A stretch of DNA of 64,000 nt, taken from NCBI RefSeq assembly GCF_017875275.1, contig NZ_JAGGML010000001.1:2439001-2503000 (forward strand), given 5' to 3'. Position numbers and translations under genes: made by a program. The stretch's first letter is position 1. Each line of letters begins with the position of its first letter. Origin of the DNA: Xanthobacter flavus (lineage in GTDB: Bacteria; Pseudomonadota; Alphaproteobacteria; Rhizobiales; Xanthobacteraceae). The notes under the pieces were generated by a model. It saw only the letters and a list, made by a program, of their open reading frames with translations. It was not told where the DNA came from and ran no database searches. This document shows, piece after piece, positions 36,032-47,574 of this stretch.

Positions 36032-37288
36032 TCACACCGGCCGGCGGTCCTCGATGGTCTTGGCGTCGGGGGGCAGCGTGCCGGGCGAGAGCATCACGAG
36101 CCGGCCGCGCAGCTTGGTGGCGGAGCGGATGTCTTCCAGCAGGGCATCCTGCGAGAGCGCGGCGGCGTCGGCCACCTCGATCTCCAGCGCCATGTCGTCC
36201 TGGTCGCCCGCGCGATCCACCACGAGGCGGGCCTTCGCGACGGCCGGATGCTTCCGCACCGCCGCCTGCACCTGCACGGGATGCACGAACATGCCGCGGA
36301 TCTTCGTGGTCTGGTCGGCGCGGCCCATCCAGCCCTTGAGGCGGATATTGGTGCGCCCGCAGGGGCTCGTTCCCGGCATGACGGCCGAAAGGTCGCCGGT
36401 GGCGAAGCGCACGAGGGGATAGTCCGGCTCGAACAGGGTGACGACCACCTCGCCGACCTCGCCCACAGCCTCCACCGGATCGCCGGTGCCGGGGCGGAGA
36501 ATTTCGACAAGGCAACCCTCGTCCACGATCATCCCATCCTCGGCCTCGCTCTCATAGGCGACGAGGCCGAGATCGGCCGTGCCGTAGCACTGGCGGGCGA
36601 TGATGCCGGCGGCCTTCAGCTCGGCCCGGTGGGCCGGCAGGAACGCCTCGCCCGACACCAATGCCTTGGTGAGGGAGGAGATGTCGGTGCCGGTCTCGCG
36701 CGCCTTGTCCACGAGGATTTTCAGGAAGGAGGGCGTGCCGCCATAACCCTGCGGACGGATGTCGGCGATGGCGCGCAATTGCAGGTCGGTCTGGCCGACG
36801 CCGGCCGGGACCACGGCGCAGCCCAGCGCGTGGGCGCCGCTCTCGACCATCGAACCCGCGGGGGTCAGGTGATAGGAGAAGGAATTGTGCACGATGTCCC
36901 CGGCGCGGAAGCCGGCGGCGAACAGCCCGCGCGCGAAGCGCCAGAAATCGGGGCCGTGGCCCTCCACGTCGTAGATGGGGCCGGGCGACATGAAGATGCG
37001 TGCGAGCTTGCCCGGCGGCGTCGCGTTGAGGCCGCCGAAGGGGTAGCTCTTCGGCTGGATTTCCAGAAGGTCCGACTTGCGGGTGACCGGCAGCTGCGCC
37101 AGTGCCGCCCGCGTGGTGATGGCGGCCGGGTCCACGTCCTTGAACAGCGCGGCGAAATAGGGCGCCTTCGCCTTGGCGTGGGCCACCTGGGCGGACAGCG
37201 CCTGCAGCAGCGCCTGCTCGCGCGCCTGAGGATCGCGGGTCTCGCTGGCGTCGTAGTGGCGGTTCGGATCGGTCATGGTCGGGCTCAT
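36032..37288 (-). CDS. Phenylacetate-CoA-ligase-like protein lacking the P-loop
   Basis: The 418-residue protein resembles phenylacetate-CoA ligase (PaaK family): QALLQALSAQVAHAKAKAPYFAALFKDVDP, LPVTRKSDLLEIQ, GLFAAGFRAGDIVHNSFSYHLTPAG, QCYGTADLGLVAYESEAEDGMIV and RFATGDLSAVMPG. Where PaaK has the ATP-binding SSGTTG, this protein reads LARIFMSPGPIYDVEG, so the canonical P-loop is absent. Activity as a ligase is therefore doubtful or mechanistically different. It is the last gene after livF, with family A repeats on both sides. Start is ATG 37288 or 37276; neither has a good ribosome site. Confidence 0.8.
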   Translation of the reverse strand: MSPTMTDPNRHYDASETRDPQAREQALLQALSAQVAHAKAKAPYFAALFKDVDPAAITTRAALAQLPVTRKSDLLEIQPKSYPFGGLNATPPGKLARIFMSPGPIYDVEGHGPDFWRFARGLFAAGFRAGDIVHNSFSYHLTPAGSMVESGAHALGCAVVPAGVGQTDLQLRAIADIRPQGYGGTPSFLKILVDKARETGTDISSLTKALVSGEAFLPAHRAELKAAGIIARQCYGTADLGLVAYESEAEDGMIVDEGCLVEILRPGTGDPVEAVGEVGEVVVTLFEPDYPLVRFATGDLSAVMPGTSPCGRTNIRLKGWMGRADQTTKIRGMFVHPVQVQAAVRKHPAVAKARLVVDRAGDQDDMALEIEVADAAALSQDALLEDIRSATKLRGRLVMLSPGTLPPDAKTIEDRRPV

Positions 37289-37331
37289 GTCAGAAGCTGG
37301 CCGGGGAGCAAAGATGATGTTCCATGGGCCG

Positions 37332-37438
37332 TCATGCCCCGGCTCGTCCGGGGCATCCACTCATCGGTGTCGGCGCTCTTCGAAGCTAAGCGCCAGCCTG
37401 GCCGCAGAGTGGATCGCCCGGACGAGCCGGGCGATGAC
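37332..37438. repeat. Palindromic intergenic repeat, family A copy 2
   Basis: Same layout as copy 1: a left palindrome containing GTCATGCCCCGGCTCGTCCG and a right palindrome containing CGCCCGGACGAGCCGGGCGA, with an unrelated middle. It sits between livF and the ligase-like gene, inside the presumed operon. Confidence 0.87.
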
Positions 37439-37513: not shown

Positions 37514-38350
<837 letters not shown>

Positions 38351-38525: not shown

Positions 38526-39806
38526 TCACCAGCCCTGCAGCTCGGTCTTGCGGGGCAGGTCGATGGTGGCGACCTTTTCCAGCTTGATGGTGCCCGACTT
38601 CACGAGATCCGAGACGGACGCATCGGTCGGGCCGCTCACCACCGAGCGGTAGAGGTCCACGCGGGTGGTGGGACGGTGGTCGCTGGTGGTCCAGGTGGAG
38701 GGATTGCACACGCCGTCCATGCCCTTCGGCACCCAGTCCTTCTTCTGGTACATGCCGTCGCGGATCTTCACGCCGGTCACGCCGCCGTTCTTGTCCGCCC
38801 ACTCCATGGCCTCCTTCATGTAGAGCGCGGTGCACATGGCGGCGAGATAGTGCACCGGGCGGTAGGCCGCGCCCGAGGCATCCGACATCTTGGAAATTTC
38901 CTTGGCGGTGGCGAGGCCGGGCGCCGAGCCGCTCCAGGTCACCGCGGTGCGGACCGGGAAGACGACGCCGTTGGCCGCCTCGCCCGCCGCCTTCATGGCG
39001 TTCTCGTCCATGCCCCACACGTTGCCGAGGAACTGCACGTCCACGCCCGCGGTCTTGCACGCCTTCAGCACCGAGATGTTGGAGCCGGCGGTGTTGCCGA
39101 GATAGGCGTAGTTGGCGCCGGACTGCTTCAGCGTCAGGCACTGGGGCGTGTAGTCACCCGGGGTCAGGGCGAAGGTGATGGGATCGAGCACCTCGAAGCC
39201 CAGTTCCTTGGCGTATTCGGCCGCCGCTTCCTTGGGCGAGTTGGGATAGGGATGGTTGGCGCCCATGTGCACCCACTTGGGCTTGCCGGTCTTGCCCTTC
39301 TTCTTCCAGTCGTCGGCGGCCCACTGCACCATGGCGCGGGCGGCGTCCGAATAGGACGGGCCGTAGAAGAAGTTGAACGGGGCGGCGCGCTCGCTCTTGG
39401 CGTTCACCTTGCCCTTGGGATCGGTCAGGGACGCCGAGTAGGAGCCCGAATAATAGGGAATCTCCTCCTTGGTCACCATGCCCACGAGGGCCTCGGTGTC
39501 GGCGGTGCCCCAGCCCTGGATGGCGACCACCTTGTCGGAGCCCACCCACTTCTTGAAGGCGGCCAGAGCGCGCGGCACCTGGTAGCCATATTCGTTGAAG
39601 TCGGAATTGATCTTCTTGCCGTTGACGCCGCCGTTGGCGTTGATCCAGGCGATGGTGTCCTGGATGCCCTGTCCGTAGGGCTGTCCCACGTCGGAGGTGC
39701 CGCCGGAATAATCGGCGAGATGGCCGATGTTGATCGACTGCGCGAGCGCAGGCGTCGCGGCGGCGAGCGCCAGCGCCGAGACGAGGGAAAGGGTCAATCG
39801 CTTCAT
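38526..39806 (-). CDS. Liv-type ABC transporter substrate-binding protein
   Basis: The 426-residue periplasmic protein has a signal peptide (MKRLTLSLVSALALAAATPALAQ) and a type I binding fold (INIGHLADYSGGTSDVGQPYGQGIQDTIAWINANGGVNGKKI, IPYYSGSYSASLTDPKGK, QFLGNVWGMDENAMK). It resembles binding proteins found with FadD-like genes rather than LivJ itself; it is longer than LivJ. Two cysteine-containing segments (CLTLKQSG and CKTAG) are present. The ligand is not known; an aromatic or aliphatic carboxylate would fit the ligase genes. Genes livM and livH lie upstream. Confidence 0.9.
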   Translation of the reverse strand: MKRLTLSLVSALALAAATPALAQSINIGHLADYSGGTSDVGQPYGQGIQDTIAWINANGGVNGKKINSDFNEYGYQVPRALAAFKKWVGSDKVVAIQGWGTADTEALVGMVTKEEIPYYSGSYSASLTDPKGKVNAKSERAAPFNFFYGPSYSDAARAMVQWAADDWKKKGKTGKPKWVHMGANHPYPNSPKEAAAEYAKELGFEVLDPITFALTPGDYTPQCLTLKQSGANYAYLGNTAGSNISVLKACKTAGVDVQFLGNVWGMDENAMKAAGEAANGVVFPVRTAVTWSGSAPGLATAKEISKMSDASGAAYRPVHYLAAMCTALYMKEAMEWADKNGGVTGVKIRDGMYQKKDWVPKGMDGVCNPSTWTTSDHRPTTRVDLYRSVVSGPTDASVSDLVKSGTIKLEKVATIDLPRKTELQGW

Positions 39807-39884: not shown

Positions 39885-40955
39885 TCAGTAGGAGAAGGGG
39901 TAGAGCTTCCAATAGGCCTTGATAAGGCGCCAGCGGTGGGCGAGCCCGTCCGGCTCGAAGATCAGGAACAGGATGATGGTGGCGCCGATCAGCATCTCGC
40001 GCATGTAGGTGATGCCGTCCTTGAGGTGCAGCACCTGGTCGATGACGCTGCCCGACAGGGCGGAGGCGAGCCAGCCGGTGGCCTCCGGCAGCAGCACCAT
40101 GAACACGGTGCCCATGAGCGTGCCCATGATGGAACCAAGCCCGCCGATGATGATCATGCCGAGGAACTGGATGGAGAACAGGATGTCGAGCCCCTCCACC
40201 GACATGAAGCCCACATAGTGCGCGTAGAGCGCCCCGCCGATGCCGGCATAGAAGGACGAGATGCCGAACGCCATGGTGCGGTACTTGGTGAGGTTCACGC
40301 CCATCATCTCGGCGGAGAGATAATGGTCGCGCACCGCAATCAGCGCCCGTCCGTCGCGCGAGCGCATGAGATTGGTCGCGCCCACGTAGCCGATGACCAC
40401 GAAGAACAGCACCACGTAGAAATACTTGTCATCGCCGGACAGGTCGAAGCCGAACAGGGTGAAGGGCGCGGCCATGGCGCCGTGGGTGCCGCCGGTGAAC
40501 CACTCGGCGCGCACGAAGAAGTCCTGCAGGATGAACTGGGCGGCGAGCGTCGCGATGGCGAGGTAGAGCCCTTTCACCCGCGCCGCCGGCAGGCCGAAGA
40601 TGAGGCCCACCACCGTGGTCCACAGCCCGGCCAGCACGATGGCGAGCGGCACCGGCACGCCCTTGTCGGCGAGAAAGGCCGAGGCGAAGCCGCCGAAGCC
40701 GAAGAACACGGCATGGCCGATGGAGATCTGGCCGGAGAAGCCGACCAGGATGTTCAACCCCAAAGCGGCGATGCCGAGATAGCCGATCTGGATCATCAGG
40801 GAGAGCGCGTAGCGCGAGGCGAACAGCGGCGCGCAGCACAGGGCCACGATGGCGAGGATGACGAAGATCAGCGTCAGCCGCGTCTGGAAGATGGTCTGGT
40901 CGGCCCGGTAGCTGGTGCGGTAGTCGCCGCACGGCCGCATGGTGGTGAGCGCCAT
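39885..40955 (-). CDS. livM: Liv-type ABC transporter permease LivM
   Basis: The 356-residue membrane protein has eight to ten helices and the LivM/LivH motif GFSGQISIGHAVFFGFGGFASAFLA. The EAA-like loop (SAEMMGVNLTKYRTMAFGISSFYAGIGGALYAHYVG) and GGLGSIMGTLMGTVFMVLLPE are also present. It pairs with LivH to form the translocation path. It starts 5 bp after the livH stop codon. A cytoplasmic C-terminal tail of about 30 residues follows the last helix. Confidence 0.92.
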   Translation of the reverse strand: MALTTMRPCGDYRTSYRADQTIFQTRLTLIFVILAIVALCCAPLFASRYALSLMIQIGYLGIAALGLNILVGFSGQISIGHAVFFGFGGFASAFLADKGVPVPLAIVLAGLWTTVVGLIFGLPAARVKGLYLAIATLAAQFILQDFFVRAEWFTGGTHGAMAAPFTLFGFDLSGDDKYFYVVLFFVVIGYVGATNLMRSRDGRALIAVRDHYLSAEMMGVNLTKYRTMAFGISSFYAGIGGALYAHYVGFMSVEGLDILFSIQFLGMIIIGGLGSIMGTLMGTVFMVLLPEATGWLASALSGSVIDQVLHLKDGITYMREMLIGATIILFLIFEPDGLAHRWRLIKAYWKLYPFSY

Positions 40956-40959
40956 GGCC

Positions 40960-41853
40960 TCAGACCCTCTCGATGTCGCGGGTGCCGAACAGCCCGTAGG
41001 GCTTGATCATCAGGATGATGATCAGGGCGTAGAAGGGGATGATCTCGTAGAGATTGCCCCACTTCAGATACTGGCTGTCCACGTACTGGCCGAGGTTTTC
41101 AAGAAGCCCAACGATCAGGCCGCCCACCACCGCGCCGAACACGCTGTCGAGGCCGCCGAGGATCACCGCCGGGAACACCTTGATGCCGAAGTAGGAGAGG
41201 GCCGACGACACGCCGTTGACGATGCCCACCACAACGCCCGCCACCGCCGAGACCGCCGCCGAGATGCCCCAGGACAGGGCGAACACCTGGCGCACCGAGA
41301 TGCCGAGCGACTGCGCCACCTGCTGGGAGAAGGCGGTCGCCCGCATGGCGAGGCCGAGGCGCGAATACTTAAAGAACCAGGCGAAGCCGGCCATGATCGC
41401 GAGGCTGACGGCGGTGGACATGAGATAGGCCGTCTGTACCTGCAGACCCAGGATGTTCACCTGCGCCACCGGGAAGATGGGCGGGAACGGCTGGGCAAAA
41501 GTGCCGAACATCCACTTCATCAGCGCCTGGAAGAAGATGGAGAGGCCGATCGTCACCATGATGACGGAGATGATGGGCTCGCCAATGAGTGGCCGCAGCA
41601 CCACCATCTGCACGGCGATGCCGAACACCATCATGAAGCAGACCGCGATGAGGAAGCCCCAGAAGAAAGGGATGTTCCACGCCGTGAGCAGCCACCAGCA
41701 GGTCCAGGCGCCGATGAGCAGGAACTCGCCCTGGGCGAAGTTCACCACCTGCGAGGCCTTGTAGATGAGCACGAAGCACATGCCGACCACGCCATAGAGC
41801 GTGCCGATGATGAGCCCGTTGATGATGAGTTGAAGCAGGAGCTGGGATTGCAT
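40960..41853 (-). CDS. livH: Liv-type ABC transporter permease LivH
   Basis: The 297-residue permease begins MQSQLLLQLIINGLIIGTLYGVVGMCFVLIYKASQVVNFAQGEFLLIGAW, the typical LivH start, and carries AMRATAFSQQVAQSLGISVRQVFALSWGISAAVSAVAGVVVG and KVFPAVILGGLDSVFGAVVGGLIVG. It is the first permease gene after the FadD-like gene; a family B repeat fills the 180-bp gap between them. It joins LivM in the membrane. Confidence 0.92.
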   Translation of the reverse strand: MQSQLLLQLIINGLIIGTLYGVVGMCFVLIYKASQVVNFAQGEFLLIGAWTCWWLLTAWNIPFFWGFLIAVCFMMVFGIAVQMVVLRPLIGEPIISVIMVTIGLSIFFQALMKWMFGTFAQPFPPIFPVAQVNILGLQVQTAYLMSTAVSLAIMAGFAWFFKYSRLGLAMRATAFSQQVAQSLGISVRQVFALSWGISAAVSAVAGVVVGIVNGVSSALSYFGIKVFPAVILGGLDSVFGAVVGGLIVGLLENLGQYVDSQYLKWGNLYEIIPFYALIIILMIKPYGLFGTRDIERV

Positions 41854-42034: not shown

Positions 42035-43984
42035 TCACGCGGCCCTCCTTTTGCCGTCGTCCTTCACCGGCGGCGGGGCGCCGAGGTCGATGACGTCGAT
42101 CTTGGTCTTGATGCGCTGGCGGGTGCCGTCCTGGAAGGTGATGGTGGTATCCACGTCGATCACCTTCTGGCCCTCGTACATGGCGTCGATGATCGTGCCG
42201 TAGCGCTCGTTGATGACGCCGCGGCGCACCTTGCGGGTGCGGGTCAGCTCGCCGTCGTCGGCGTCCAGTTCCTTGTAAAGCAGGAGGAAACGGCCGATGC
42301 GCTGCTTCTCCGCCAGCGTGCGGTTCACCGCCTCCACTTCCTTCCTCAGAAGCGCGATGACTTCGGGCTTGGCGGAAAGATCGGTATAGGTGGTGAAGGC
42401 GATGCGGTTCTTCTCCGCCCATTTCGAGACGATGGAGAAGCGGATGCAGATGAGCGCGGCGAGGCTGTCGCGCCCGTCGCCCAGCACCACGGCCTCGGCC
42501 ACGTAGGGCGAGAACTTCAGCTTGTTCTCGATGTATTGCGGCGAGAAGCGATCGTTGTGCGAGGTCTTCGCCATGTCACGAATGCGGTCGATGACGACGA
42601 GATGGCCCTTCTTGTTGAAATAGCCGGCATCGCCCGTGCGCATCCAGCCCTCTTCGGCGAAGGACTTCTTGGTCTCTTCGTCGTTGCGGAAATAGCCGGT
42701 GAACATGTTGCCGTGGCGGGTGACCACCTCGCCGAGGCCGTTGGGATCGGGGTCGTCGATGCGGATTTCGACGCCCTCGAACGGCACGCCCACTGTATCG
42801 AAATCGACGTCCTTCTCCGTGTGCAGCGTATAGGCGCCGAGCAGCTCGGTCTGGCCGTAGAGCTGGCGCATGGGCACGCCCAGCGCGAGGAAGAAGCGGA
42901 AGGTGTCGGGTCCGAGCGCGGCGCCACCGGTGCAGGCGGATTTCAGGTGCGAGAAGCCGAGGCGGTCGCGCAACGCGCGGAACAGGATGAAGTCGGCGAG
43001 CGGGGAGCGGCGGCCCTCGTCCAGCGCCTTGAGGCCGAGCTTCATGCCAAGGTCGAACATGGCCCGCTTCAAAGCGGAGGAATCCATCATGCGCGAGCGT
43101 ACGTCGGCAGCGATCTGCTCCCACACGCGGGGGGCGAACAGCACGAAGGAGGGGCCGATCTCCCGCATGTCGGCCATCAGGGTTTCCTGCTCCTCCACGA
43201 AGTTTACCTTCATGCGGGAGATGAGCGCCTGACCGAAGGCGTAGATCTGCTCCATGATCCACGGCATCTGCAGAACACTGACGTATTCGTCCGTGGCGAG
43301 CCTTGGGTCCATCTCAAGATAGGCGCGGCAGTGCCTCAGCAGCGCGCCGCCCGTGAGCATGGCGAGCTTGGGGTGGGAGGTGGTGCCCGACGTGGTGCAG
43401 AGGATGGCGACATCCTCGCCCTCGCCGGCGTCCACGAGGCGGTCATAGGCGCCGGGATCGCGGGCGGCCACTTCGGCACCCCGCGCCTCAAGCTCCTTCA
43501 GCGAGATCAGGCGCGGGTCGTCGTATTTCCGGATACCGCGCGGGTCGGAATAGACGATGTGCCGGACGGTGGGAATTTTCTCTTCCAGCGAGAGCAGCTT
43601 GTCGACCTGCTCCTCGTCCTCGGCGAAGATCACCGCAACGTCTGCATAGGTGACGAGATAGGCCACCTCGTCGGCGAGCGCGTCGCGATAGATGCCGAGG
43701 GAGAGGCCGCCCACCGCGTGGGCTGCGATCTCGCCCATCAGCCATTCCGGGCGATTGTCGCCGATGAGGCCGACCACGTCGCCACGGGCAACACCGAGCG
43801 TGCCGAGGCCCAGGGTCATGTCGCGCACGCGGGTCGCGACCTCGCCCCAGGTGTAGGAAATCCAGATGCCGAGGTCCTTCTCGCGCAGCCACGTCTCGTC
43901 GGCATGCGCCTTCGCGTGGAGCCGCAGCAGCTTCGGCAGGGTGTCGTGGACCGTAACGTCCGGATAGGCGGGAACGGGAGCCAT
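42035..43984 (-). CDS. Long-chain-type AMP-forming acyl-CoA synthetase in the Liv operon
   Basis: The 649-residue ANL enzyme has an ATP-binding motif of slightly unusual form (ILCTTSGTTSHPKLAML), the adenylate motif LYGQTELLGAYT, GDAGYFNKKGHLVVIDRIRDM and FSPQYIENKLKFSPYVAEAVVLGDGRDSLAALICI. The N-terminal YTWGEVATRVRDMTLGLGTLG and GDNRPEWLMGEIAAHAVGG match long-chain fatty acyl-CoA synthetases. It would activate the imported carboxylate by CoA thioesterification. It lies between livG and livH on the same strand. The ATG at 43984 begins the conserved region; the frame upstream overlaps livG. Confidence 0.88.
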   Translation of the reverse strand: MAPVPAYPDVTVHDTLPKLLRLHAKAHADETWLREKDLGIWISYTWGEVATRVRDMTLGLGTLGVARGDVVGLIGDNRPEWLMGEIAAHAVGGLSLGIYRDALADEVAYLVTYADVAVIFAEDEEQVDKLLSLEEKIPTVRHIVYSDPRGIRKYDDPRLISLKELEARGAEVAARDPGAYDRLVDAGEGEDVAILCTTSGTTSHPKLAMLTGGALLRHCRAYLEMDPRLATDEYVSVLQMPWIMEQIYAFGQALISRMKVNFVEEQETLMADMREIGPSFVLFAPRVWEQIAADVRSRMMDSSALKRAMFDLGMKLGLKALDEGRRSPLADFILFRALRDRLGFSHLKSACTGGAALGPDTFRFFLALGVPMRQLYGQTELLGAYTLHTEKDVDFDTVGVPFEGVEIRIDDPDPNGLGEVVTRHGNMFTGYFRNDEETKKSFAEEGWMRTGDAGYFNKKGHLVVIDRIRDMAKTSHNDRFSPQYIENKLKFSPYVAEAVVLGDGRDSLAALICIRFSIVSKWAEKNRIAFTTYTDLSAKPEVIALLRKEVEAVNRTLAEKQRIGRFLLLYKELDADDGELTRTRKVRRGVINERYGTIIDAMYEGQKVIDVDTTITFQDGTRQRIKTKIDVIDLGAPPPVKDDGKRRAA

Positions 43985-44006
43985 GGTGCGCCTCAGCCTT
44001 GCCGCA

Positions 44007-44855
44007 TCATGCGGACACGGCGGCGGGCGCCGCCTCTTCGATCTCAAGATCCTCCTCGCCGAGGTAGGCCTTGCGAACGTGCGGATCGGCCAGCACGGCG
44101 GAGGGCTCGCCTTCCACCAGCTTGCGACCGAAGTCGAGCACCATCACCCTGTGGGAAATGTCCATCACCACGCCCATGTCATGCTCGATCATGATGATCG
44201 TCATGCCCCATTCCTCGTTGAGATCGACGATGTAGCGGGCCATGTCCTCCTTCTCCTCGAGGTTCATGCCCGCCATGGGCTCGTCGAGAAGGATGAGCTT
44301 GGGCTCCAGCGCCACCGCGCGGGCAAGTTCCACGCGCTTGCGCAGGCCGTAGGAGAGGGTGCCGGCGGTGGCCTTGCGCACATGCTGGATGTCAAGGAAG
44401 TCGATAACTTCCTCCACCTTGCGACGATGCTCCAGCTCTTCCTTCTGCGCACCGCCGATCCAGTAGAGCGCGCCGGTGAAGAAGTTGTTCTTCAAGAGGT
44501 GGTGGCGGCCCACCATGATGTTGTCCAGAACGCTCATGTGGCTGAACAGCGCGAGATTCTGGAAGGTGCGGCCGATGCCGATCTCTGCCCGGCGGTTGGG
44601 CTTCAGTTTCGTCACGTCGGCGCCGTCGAAGACCACTCGCCCCTCGCTCGGCGTGTAGCGACCCGAGATGCAGTTCAGCATGGAGGTCTTGCCAGCGCCA
44701 TTGGGGCCGATGATGGAGAACAGCTCGCTGGGACGCACATGGAAGCTGACGTCCGACAGCGCCTTCAGGCCGCCGAAACGCAGCGAGATATTCTGGACAT
44801 CAAGCAGGGCAGACGCGCCCGTGGCAGCCCCGGCCGAAGCGGCAGGTTGCAACAT
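44007..44855 (-). CDS. livG: Branched-chain amino acid-type ABC transporter ATPase LivG
   Basis: The 282-residue ATPase has Walker A GPNGAGKTSMLNCISG, the LivG-type GIGRTFQNLALFSHMSVLDNIMVGRHHLLK, signature LSYGLRKRVELARAVALEP and Walker B LILLDEPMAGMNLEE. It is the first gene of the Liv-type operon and faces the IclR-ANL gene across a 168-bp gap with two 15-bp dyads. The ATG at 44855 has a GGGAGGGG site. With LivF it drives the LivHM permease. Confidence 0.92.
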   Translation of the reverse strand: MLQPAASAGAATGASALLDVQNISLRFGGLKALSDVSFHVRPSELFSIIGPNGAGKTSMLNCISGRYTPSEGRVVFDGADVTKLKPNRRAEIGIGRTFQNLALFSHMSVLDNIMVGRHHLLKNNFFTGALYWIGGAQKEELEHRRKVEEVIDFLDIQHVRKATAGTLSYGLRKRVELARAVALEPKLILLDEPMAGMNLEEKEDMARYIVDLNEEWGMTIIMIEHDMGVVMDISHRVMVLDFGRKLVEGEPSAVLADPHVRKAYLGEEDLEIEEAAPAAVSA

Positions 44856-44901
44856 GATCCCCTCCCTATCCCGCATTGCGGGTTGGCTTCTGCGAGCCGT
44901 A

Positions 44902-44916
44902 TCTCATATTATGAGA
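44902..44916. promoter_or_regulatory. Putative IclR-type operator 1
   Basis: TCTCATATTATGAGA is a dyad with 6-bp arms and a 3-bp centre, 46 bp upstream of the livG start. A related 15-mer lies at 45008-45022. The size and symmetry fit IclR-family operators. Confidence 0.6.
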
Positions 44917-45007
44917 CGCTAATTGCATTCATTATCGAACGACCGTTTGAATCTTTCAAGAGCATCTTTCTGCAATGGAGAAAAATATTGCGATCTCGCC
45001 AAAAACG

Positions 45008-45022
45008 TCTCACATATTGAGA
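45008..45022. promoter_or_regulatory. Putative IclR-type operator 2
   Basis: TCTCACATATTGAGA shares the outer TCTCA...TGAGA arms and length with operator 1. It ends one base before the ATG of the IclR-ANL gene, so a protein bound here would block that gene's transcription or translation start. Confidence 0.6.
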
Positions 45023-45023
45023 T

Positions 45024-46655
45024 ATGTCTTCTTCTTCGGATATGGATGCCGCCTCTCCCAGGGGCGCCCAAAGCCTTTCCCGTGCGGTGTCCGTGCTGCG
45101 CGTCGTGGCGGCGGCGCCGACGCAGGGCGCGCGCCTTGCCGATCTGGTGAAGGGCACCGGACTGTCCAAGGCGACGGCGCATCGCCTGGCGGCCGCGCTC
45201 GTCCACGAGGGCCTGCTCGCCTACGATCCGGCCAGCCGATACTACGGCCTCGGCCAGTTCCTGCTGGATGCCGGAAGTCGCGCGGGCGGGGGGGCGGCCG
45301 GCAGCGTGGCCGAAGCCGATCACGCCCCCGACCCGAGCCTGTACCAGCGGCCGGAATACGGCGGGGATGCGATTGCTCTCGCCCATCTGCTCTGCGACCG
45401 GCATCTGCCCGGCAAGCGCGCGCATCCGGCCATGATCCACGAAACCGTTTCGGGCCAGACATCGGAACTGAGCTTCGGCAAGCTGGCTGAGTATTCCGCG
45501 CGCTTTGCGCGCGTGCTGGCATCCGTGGGGGTCAGGAAAGGCGACTGCGTTGCGGTCATGCTGCCCAAGGGGGTCGAGCTGGTCATCGCCGCTCTGGCGA
45601 TCTGGCGCGTCGGCGCGGTCTATATGCCGCTGTTTTCCACCTATGCCACGTCGGCCGTGAACTCCCGGCTGGAGTCGGGGGAGGTGAAGGCCATCGTTGC
45701 AACCCGCACACTCGTCGATCGGGCTCGGAATTATATCGACTCGTCCACTCCGGTCTTTCTCATAGAAGGAGAGCAGATCAACCGCATTGACGGTATCGTC
45801 AAGCAGTTCTGGTCATCGATTTATTCAACAGAGCCGCTCGATGACGTCGCCATGTATGGTGAGAATGATCCATTCATAATGACATATTCGCCCAAATCGA
45901 TAGCAGCAAAATTGGGCCTGATGATACCGGTGAGGGCGCTGGCTGAATTCGAGCAATGCATGCGCGTCGGGCTCGATGTCCGGGACGAGGACGTCTACTG
46001 GAACATGGCGGACCAGGGGTGGGAGTACGGGATTTTCTACGGTCTTGTCGGGCCGCTGCTGATCGGCTGCTCGATCCTGTTCTGCGATGGTCCCTATGAC
46101 GTGTCGCAGGGCTATCGCGTCCTGTCCAAGTTCCGTGTGACCAACCTCACGGCGGCCCCGTCCCAGATCAAGGCGTGGCGGCGCAGGGACCTCACCCGGG
46201 CGCCGAACCGGCTCGCGCTCCGGCTGGTTTCGGTCTGCGGGGAGCCGCTGCCGTCCGATCTCGTTTCGTGGGTCACGCGGAAGCTGGAAGTGCCCCTCGT
46301 GAACCAGTACGGGCAGCGGGAAACGGGGATGATCATGGGCATGCGGCATGATCCGCACAATCCGCGCGCCCTCGGCCATGCCTCGGTCGGCCGGATCGCG
46401 CCGGGATTTTCCCTCGTGGTGCTCGACCCGGACGGCGCCGTGCTCGGCGCGGGGGCCGAGGGCACGCTGGCGATCGATATCCGACGGTCGCCCTTGTTCT
46501 GGTTCCGCGGCTACAGGAAGGACGATCCGGGAACTAAGGCGCGGTTCAGGTTCGGCGACGATTATTTCATCCTCGGAGATACCGGCCATATCGATGCGGA
46601 CGGCTGCGTGCACTACAGCGGGCGCGCGTCCCACGCGATCTCCATGCAGGGATGA
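45024..46655 (+). CDS. Chimeric IclR helix-turn-helix / truncated acyl-CoA-synthetase-like protein
   Basis: One open frame of 543 residues joins two unrelated modules. Residues 15-78 form an IclR winged helix (SLSRAVSVLRVVAAAPTQGA, LADLVKGTGLSKATAHRLAA, LVHEGLLAYDPASRYYGLG). A Gly/Ala-rich junction (about 84-95) follows. From about residue 106 to the end it is an ANL acyl-CoA synthetase core (VAVMLPKGVELVIAALAIW, VYWNMADQGWEYGIFYGLVG, VNQYGQRETGM, ILGDTGHIDADG). The IclR effector domain is missing. The ligase part has MTYSPKSIAAKLG where TSGTTGxPKG belongs, has SH for the hinge Asp pair (YSGRASHAI) and stops there, so the C-terminal subdomain and catalytic lysine are absent. No ribosome site is visible at ATG 45024 or 45042. 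It could be a ligand-sensing regulator or the scar of a deletion. Confidence 0.7.
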   Translation: MSSSSDMDAASPRGAQSLSRAVSVLRVVAAAPTQGARLADLVKGTGLSKATAHRLAAALVHEGLLAYDPASRYYGLGQFLLDAGSRAGGGAAGSVAEADHAPDPSLYQRPEYGGDAIALAHLLCDRHLPGKRAHPAMIHETVSGQTSELSFGKLAEYSARFARVLASVGVRKGDCVAVMLPKGVELVIAALAIWRVGAVYMPLFSTYATSAVNSRLESGEVKAIVATRTLVDRARNYIDSSTPVFLIEGEQINRIDGIVKQFWSSIYSTEPLDDVAMYGENDPFIMTYSPKSIAAKLGLMIPVRALAEFEQCMRVGLDVRDEDVYWNMADQGWEYGIFYGLVGPLLIGCSILFCDGPYDVSQGYRVLSKFRVTNLTAAPSQIKAWRRRDLTRAPNRLALRLVSVCGEPLPSDLVSWVTRKLEVPLVNQYGQRETGMIMGMRHDPHNPRALGHASVGRIAPGFSLVVLDPDGAVLGAGAEGTLAIDIRRSPLFWFRGYRKDDPGTKARFRFGDDYFILGDTGHIDADGCVHYSGRASHAISMQG

Positions 46656-46725: not shown

Positions 46726-46881
46726 TTTTCAATCTGGCCAAGCGCCGGCTCTTGTCGCAAGATATCGTTCCATCTGGTGGCCGGGAAGCTGGTCCGCCAT
46801 CGCGGTTTCCGTCCGGACCGGGTTTCGACGTCAGCTCCTGCGCCGATTGAGCCGAGGCCGGACCTTGAGCGTTCAAAGGCA

Positions 46882-47574
46882 ATGGCGCGCACCATCGGTT
46901 CCAACGGCGCCCGTACCGCACAAGCCATTCGGCAGGCGGGCGTCCAGCTCATCTATCGGCACGGCTACGAGGCCATGAGCCTCAGGCAGCTGGCGGCTGA
47001 GGTTGGCCTGCAGTCCGGCTCGCTCTACAAATATTTCGACAACAAGCAGTCCCTGCTGTTCGATATCGTCCGCGACCATATGGAGGATCTGCTCGGCAAG
47101 GCCGAGGCGGATCTCGCTGGAGTCGAGGATCCGCTGGCCCGCCTCAAGGTCTTCTGCGCCTTCCATCTGCGCTATCACATGACGCGGCTCGCCCACGTCT
47201 TCATTGCCAACATGGAGATCCGCAGCCTCGACGAGGCCCACCGCGCGGTCGTGGTCGGCCTGCGCCGGCGCTATGAGGGGCTGCTGGAGGGCATCCTGCG
47301 CCAGGGGGCGGAACTCGGCGTCTTCGAGGTGCGCGAGCCCAAGGTCGCGACCTACGCCATCATCTCCATGCTCACCGGCATCTGCATGTGGTACCTGCCG
47401 GGCGGGCGGCTGAGCCAGGACGAGATCGTCGACGCCTACACCGCCCTCGTCATCGGCGGTGTCACGGGCGGGACGCCGCTTGCCGAATCCCTTTCTGCGC
47501 CTCTCGCTCCCGTCGCTGCTCCCGCGGATCTTCCGGCGCGCGGGAAGCCGGTGCGCAAGGCCGCAAGGGCCTGA
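46882..47574 (+). CDS. TetR family transcriptional regulator of the liu genes (LiuQ-like by position)
   Basis: The 230-residue protein has a TetR N-terminal domain (AQAIRQAGVQLIYRHGYEAMSLRQLAAEVGLQSGSLYKYFDNKQSLLFDIV) and a helical C-terminal ligand domain (CAFHLRYHMTRLAHVFIANMEIRSLDEAHRAVV, GICMWYLPGGRLS). An extra Ala/Pro-rich tail of about 35 residues ends the protein. It is encoded just upstream of liuB on the same strand; TetR regulators of this type control leucine/isovalerate catabolism in several Proteobacteria. The ligand would be an acyl-CoA of the pathway, by inference. Confidence 0.85.
   Translation: MARTIGSNGARTAQAIRQAGVQLIYRHGYEAMSLRQLAAEVGLQSGSLYKYFDNKQSLLFDIVRDHMEDLLGKAEADLAGVEDPLARLKVFCAFHLRYHMTRLAHVFIANMEIRSLDEAHRAVVVGLRRRYEGLLEGILRQGAELGVFEVREPKVATYAIISMLTGICMWYLPGGRLSQDEIVDAYTALVIGGVTGGTPLAESLSAPLAPVAAPADLPARGKPVRKAARA

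Follow-up and report, generated by a model that had tools for sequence, protein, structure and literature searches.

A putative one-component regulator joining an IclR winged helix to a dead acyl-CoA ligase domain in Xanthobacter flavus

The window, a stretch of 64,000 nucleotides of the Xanthobacter flavus genome whose numbering is used throughout, contained a gene on the + strand (45024..46655) for a 543-residue fusion of an IclR-type DNA-binding domain with a pseudo-ligase, identified from its single frame, its Pfam domains and its same-junction orthologues. On the − strand, divergent from the fusion, lay a likely target operon whose first gene, as judged from synteny, encoded a LivG-type ABC ATPase (44007..44876). 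It was followed by genes for a long-chain-type acyl-CoA ligase with a TSGTT-type P-loop (42035..43987), a LivH-type permease (40960..41853), a LivM-type permease (39885..40955), a Liv-type substrate-binding protein (38526..39806), a LivF-type ABC ATPase (37514..38350) and, as the last gene of the likely operon, a PaaK-like AMP-binding protein (36032..37360; all − strand). A TetR regulator gene, which also occurs in loci without the fusion and the dyads described below, was located downstream of the fusion (46879..47574, + strand) and may share its control. In the window and in all 12 compared loci the fusion stood between a divergently oriented LivG gene and TetR; as far as the contigs reach, the operon order after LivG (ligase, LivH, LivM, substrate-binding protein, LivF, PaaK-like protein) was kept and liu genes came after TetR. 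LivG was also divergent from the fusion in all seven Azospirillum loci and in G977, a genome from the class sample, and the whole liv-ligase operon was present in four annotated Azospirillum records and in G977. In A. brasilense, valine-degradation genes were found beyond the fusion.

The fusion protein consisted of three parts. The IclR winged helix-turn-helix occupied residues 14–78 (45063..45257, + strand) and matched HTH_IclR (PF09339) over residues 17–69 (E 5.7e-13, 48.8 bits against a cut-off of 22). It was followed by a linker of residues 79–111 (45258..45356, + strand), which evolved fast according to both conservation and dN/dS, and by a pseudo-ANL domain of residues 112–543 (45357..46652, + strand), which Pfam, PDB 5u2a and dN/dS delimited as the N-terminal ligase domain only. 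AMP-binding (PF00501) was matched over residues 132–484 (E 1.5e-48), and the nearest solved chain, PDB 5u2a, aligned with residues 123–542 (E 1.1e-66). Neither the IclR_C effector domain (PF01614) nor AMP-binding_C (PF13193) gave a Pfam match in the window protein even at E ≤ 1, and IclR_C was found in a paralogue within the same genome. The uninterrupted frame and the Pfam matches agree with the sequence-only reading of this locus, which had described one 543-codon frame carrying an IclR winged helix without the IclR effector domain. An AlphaFold model of the fusion had a mean pLDDT of 45, with the winged helix region alone passable.

The ligase part was compared motif by motif with active ANL enzymes, using 23 fusion rows (20 truncated and three Bradyrhizobium-type) and 16 active relatives; the names and roles of motifs A3–A10 are those that we take to apply to the family. 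The P-loop (A3, residues 287–298; 45882..45917, + strand) was lost, with MTYSPKSIAAKLG in place of the TSGTTG/TSGSTG-type loop of the 16 aligned active relatives. In the A5 motif, YGxTE, threonine was replaced by arginine in all 20 aligned truncated fusions and by alanine in the three Bradyrhizobium-type fusions, whereas it was kept in 16 of 16 active relatives (15 with YGQTE, one with FGATE). The corresponding segment of the window protein, QYGQRETG (46305..46328, + strand), had earlier been taken for an intact substrate-side segment; that assignment is wrong in a single residue, arginine standing in place of the A5 threonine. At the end of the protein (46623..46652, + strand) a remnant of the A8 hinge, GRASHAI, had SH where active relatives have an aspartate pair, and the C-terminal subdomain with the A10 lysine was absent. 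The A7 aspartate (GD) was present in all 23 fusion rows. Pfam and the motif comparison thus both bear out the earlier description of an ANL N-terminal domain that has lost its P-loop and its C-terminal subdomain. As a separate observation, the P-loop region of the PaaK-like protein (36032–37360) also appeared abnormal by eye (MSPGPIYDVEG), and this protein may be another non-canonical ligase.

The full-length fusion was found in 14 of 391 family genomes, the window's own included, at 69–100% identity, and one further family genome, G711, carried a longer relative at 41% identity. These counts are lower bounds, because a strict cut-off was applied and only the best candidates were scored per genome. 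Within the genus, nine of 14 genomes had the fusion. It was also present in Xanthobacter sp. YC-JY1, in Aquabacter cavernae and in two MAGs labelled Hyphomicrobiales and Rhizobiales, although some of these named-source sequences were identical to sequences already among the genomes surveyed. Thirteen aligned rows shared a length range of 537–544 residues, the junction, the loss of the P-loop and the end point. A tblastn search against plasmids gave 13 Azospirillum records at 49–52% identity, covering residues 33–35 to 542, and all seven of those read stopped at the same hinge. The same truncated kind of fusion occurred in G977 (from a sample of 385 class genomes). In a phylum sample, one of 398 genomes matched at E ≤ 1e-120, which was the own genome only. 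An order search with the first 99 residues as the query returned, at E ≤ 1e-10, 25 of 397 genomes including the window's own, and no second fusion was recognised among them. Viral contigs yielded no fusion and two ligases. The distribution looks restricted. Four fusion members in annotated records were labelled AMP-binding protein, which classes them with enzymes. A search for homologues with the same junction, proposed along with the first description of the gene, was thereby answered by other genomes of two orders, and because these carry same-junction orthologues, chance joining and misassembly were ruled out.

Selection on the three parts differed. By the Nei–Gojobori method, dN/dS of the ligase part was 0.025–0.19 in 17 of 17 pairs and that of the winged helix was 0–0.51, while the linker reached 0.18–1.12 in the 14 computable truncated-form pairs (one saturated) and 0.04–0.07 in two Bradyrhizobium-type pairs. 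Among 13 rows, 33 of 65 positions were invariant in the winged helix, 1 of 33 in the linker and 257 of 430 in the ligase part, with 0 of 9 at the former P-loop (positions 289–297). Judged from these ratios and counts, purifying selection maintains the dead ligase part, and the former ATP loop is free to vary. The dN/dS calculation had been suggested together with the first description of the gene, and for the dead ligase part it came out far below 1 in each of the 17 pairs.

Longer relatives, in which a degenerate C-terminal subdomain follows the ligase domain, were found in the genus of G711 (three of 265 genomes; the Bradyrhizobium-type forms) and in one of 385 class genomes (G1201). Pfam assigned a winged helix and a ligase domain with a C-terminal subdomain to the long forms at L102 and L130. 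Their P-loops were also altered (YTLSIGGTPKG in G711, YLAGTTNSPRG in G1201) and A8 was degenerate; the A10 lysine was kept in the three Bradyrhizobium-type proteins and was not recognisable by eye in G1201. All four long-form loci had a tannase-family gene divergent from the fusion, as recognised by Pfam in two of them (G711 and G1201) and by tblastn in three, G881 and G807 among these. For the ligase part, a tree was built from the 23 fusions and 16 active relatives, leaving out G463, G977, G1201 and six further plasmid records. The fusions formed one side of a branch with 99/99 support, and the Bradyrhizobium-type forms were sister to the truncated forms, in a tree that was rooted on a long outgroup row and carried long-branch warnings. 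The Bradyrhizobium-type forms retained the IclR linker helix in the linker region, and the winged helix plus linker helix of G711 was 57% (58/102) identical to a classical IclR protein encoded in the same genome as the window. This match ended at IclR residue 123, and the IclR_C match of that protein began at residue 110; therefore, the junction is placed close to where the effector domain begins. A stepwise origin, in which the two parts would have been joined close to the beginning of the IclR effector domain, after which the ATP site would have decayed and the C-terminal subdomain been lost last, forms part of the joint reading given below and is put forward with the same moderate confidence. 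Elsewhere in the window's genome (L084, 3389–5931) a classical iclR gene, with a winged helix close to that of the fusions, was followed immediately downstream by an intact ANL ligase gene. A gene order of this kind could give rise to such a fusion, but this ligase was not close to the fused one (29% identity over part).

The loci without the fusion bear on how the gene arose. Eleven such LivG loci were read; in six of them LivG and TetR were adjacent, no second gene pair intervening, and in the other five the fusion was absent and no TetR match was found. The sequence-only reading had offered, as an alternative, a deletion scar that fused an iclR gene with what was left of a ligase gene, for example one of the liu cluster, in which case the gene would be a decaying pseudogene. 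The missing C-terminal subdomain and P-loop fit this idea, as does the window copy having diverged more than its neighbour genes. We nevertheless give it next to no credence. Conservation of the junction across many genomes of two orders refutes it, the dN/dS values are far below 1, longer sister forms exist, and the fusion-less relatives lack both halves at the locus. As to the divergence itself, the window copy was 74–75% identical to those of congeners, while the compared flanking liv, TetR and liu genes were 88–99% identical to those of G009. Its dS to G009 was 0.88, against 0.18–0.36 for nine neighbour genes, which suggests that the window gene was replaced by a copy from another lineage.

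The 147-bp gap between livG and the fusion contained two operator-like dyads, neither assigned to a strand. O1 (ATCTCATATTATGAGAC, 44901..44917) lay beside livG and had at most one mismatch in 13 of 13 aligned loci; O2 (GTCTCACATATTGAGAT, 45007..45023) touched the fusion start codon and had at most one mismatch in 12 of 13 loci and two in the remaining one. Two 15-bp dyads had been proposed here, of which the pair was upheld and the length was not, the dyads being 17 bp (6-5-6). Between O1 and O2, on the − strand, a promoter-like TTGAAA-N17-GATAAT for livG (44931..44959) was exact in 13 of 13 aligned loci, and a weaker promoter-like site on the + strand lay over O1. A promoter-like TTGAAA-N18-TATAGT was likewise present in all seven Azospirillum loci. 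The dyads were of the type RTCTCA-N5-TGAGAY in Xanthobacteraceae and GGTCCA-N5-TGGACC in Azospirillum.

Mismatches were counted within 300 bp upstream of LivG, with the fusion-less loci scored against both dyad types. Two dyads were present in 21 of 21 fusion loci (13 of the Xanthobacteraceae type, seven from Azospirillum, and G977). The best dyad (O1) had 0–1 mismatch in all 21 and the second 0–1 in 20, with two mismatches in L029, whereas the best site of either type in the 11 fusion-less LivG loci had 3–5. G463 carried both dyads. All three Bradyrhizobium-type loci had two GGTCCA-type dyads before the tannase gene, the second site with one mismatch in two of them; the sites of G1201 were weak by the GGTCCA rule (one and two mismatches). 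A dyad pair was met by a loose rule in 16 of 5000 shuffles of the intergenic region and, by the same rule, in 30 of 1304 equally long window segments, counting those that overlap the pair itself. A single pair is therefore only weakly unusual, and the case for the dyads rests on their conservation across loci and on the fusion-less controls. The consensus for IclR group 1 operators published in PMC13273656, GKTYCRYW3-4RYGRAMC, was matched exactly by the Azospirillum O1 in seven of seven loci and by O2 in five of seven, and had no match in 2.5 million mononucleotide-shuffled bases. O1 and O2 of the window had three and four mismatches to it, the six Xanthobacteraceae sites tested had 2–4, four Bradyrhizobium-type sites 1–3, and the two G1201 sites three and two.

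In the whole genome of the window (5.35 Mb) RTCTCA-N5-TGAGAY occurred four times, two of these in the livG-fusion gap. Of the other two sites (G000:C1:1485402 and 1527464, regions L148 and L149), one was flanked by a classical iclR gene and a GMC oxidoreductase gene, and the other preceded a substrate-binding-protein-like gene, with a further classical iclR gene about 1.9 kb away; both of these iclR genes have IclR_C. Given that classical iclR genes occur around both extra dyads, sites of this type may be bound by a paralogue, and the dyads beside livG could in principle belong to another regulator, either the TetR neighbour or a separate IclR protein, with the fusion serving some other role. 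We consider this very unlikely. TetR persists in six fusion-less loci that have no such dyad, by which it was ruled out as the owner, and a dyad pair accompanies the fusion in the tannase context too.

Relative to the expected livG start, O1 was placed shortly downstream, and O2 was at the regulator's own start codon, so that the layout is that of an autoregulated repressor that could loop. The dyad centres were 104–106 bp apart in Xanthobacteraceae, 116 in Azospirillum, 117 in G977, 104–105 in the three Bradyrhizobium-type loci and 138 in G1201, where the sites were weak. These spacings come close to whole numbers of 10.5-bp turns (P about 0.002 under a uniform expectation, with one value per lineage), and the helical phasing is only suggestive because lineages may share an inherited spacing.

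Taken together, the conserved junction, the purifying selection, the conserved divergent position and the paired dyads that track the fusion give good support to the earlier proposal that the protein is a regulator. Probably, it is a one-component regulator that has a catalytically dead ANL ligase domain in the place of the IclR effector domain, represses the liv-ligase operon and senses an acid. In the mechanism that we propose from the sequence data, the winged helix would bind the two copies of the 17-bp IclR-type dyad; with O1 and O2 on the same face of the DNA, the sites could be bridged by two dimers, with the livG promoter in the loop. The looped state would repress both the liv-ligase operon and the regulator's own gene, and the pseudo-ligase would most likely bind an acyl or aryl acid, whether free or as the CoA ester, relieving repression. 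The steps differ in strength: DNA binding by the fusion protein is strongly indicated, repression appears likely and looping is suggested by the layout of the sites, and ligand sensing by the pseudo-ligase, suggested by domain conservation and gene context, is more tentative. The kind of ligand might be branched short acids for the liv type and phenolic acids for the tannase type, as the gene neighbourhood suggests.

The same observations could be accommodated if the protein were a DNA-binding regulator whose pseudo-ligase served as a dimerisation or loop-forming scaffold without a small-molecule ligand. Since the Xanthobacteraceae form does not conserve the IclR linker helix, its dimer must be held together by some other part, and the dyad spacing suits looping. 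However, stretches around and after the A4 motif are among the most conserved of the protein (31 of 32 positions invariant in residues 354–385 and 19 of 25 in 322–346, 13 rows), and these we take to adjoin the former substrate site; the gene context, moreover, is one of uptake, activation or ester hydrolysis of acids. A pure scaffold therefore strikes us as rather unlikely. Highly improbable, in our view, is an enzyme-regulator whose domain keeps some other chemistry, such as adenylate or acyl-CoA hydrolysis. It would account for the A7 aspartate retained in all rows and for the lysine at the place of A10 in the three Bradyrhizobium-type proteins, but the truncated forms have lost the P-loop, the A5 threonine and the whole C-terminal subdomain, and in place of the A8 aspartate pair SH or SD is found.

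The proposed acid-sensing regulator can be set beside several known systems. With IclR one-component regulators it shares the PF09339 winged helix and the divergent layout, and the palindromic sites beside the gene are putative operators of this family, those of Azospirillum fitting the group 1 consensus of PMC13273656 and those of the window departing from it by three and four mismatches; it differs in having a ligase-derived domain where IclR regulators have IclR_C. The homologous N-terminal domain of about 420 residues is shared with ACSM/AcsA-like acyl-CoA synthetases, the nearest active relatives being 33–37% identical, but unlike these enzymes the fusion lacks the P-loop, the A5 threonine, A8 and the C-terminal subdomain, and has a DNA-binding domain. 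MocR regulators, which combine a GntR winged helix with an aminotransferase-like sensory domain, similarly join a DNA-binding domain to an enzyme-derived one, in the fusion a putative sensor (MocR as described in PMC5320631). The DNA-binding family and the enzyme fold are different, Pfam giving an IclR winged helix and AMP-binding for the fusion, and the MocR ligand is PLP.

Three long frames of the order search were looked at as possible further IclR fusions (L107, L108 and L109). L107 was rejected as an IclR fusion, being by eye a classical IclR sequence with upstream read-through. L108 (1714–3517, − strand) and L109 are IclR regulators fused to an SMP-30/gluconolactonase-like part, and so also join IclR to an enzyme-type domain; in L108, for which Pfam found the HTH, IclR_C and SGL, the effector domain is kept and the enzyme part is added, not substituted as in the pseudo-ligase fusion.

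No description of an IclR–ANL regulator was found in open-licence PMC text. We are moderately confident in the joint reading, that the fusions represent an undescribed regulator class in which a dead acyl-CoA ligase would sense for an IclR winged helix, which acts through two helically phased operators and has been re-used for liv-ligase and tannase targets, and which had the stepwise origin outlined above. If this is true, genes annotated as ligases conceal a class of acid sensors, and the forms, which range from partly to fully decayed, would offer a direct route to study how an enzyme becomes a sensor. Members of the ANL fold accept many acids, and the fold would then be a useful biosensor module.
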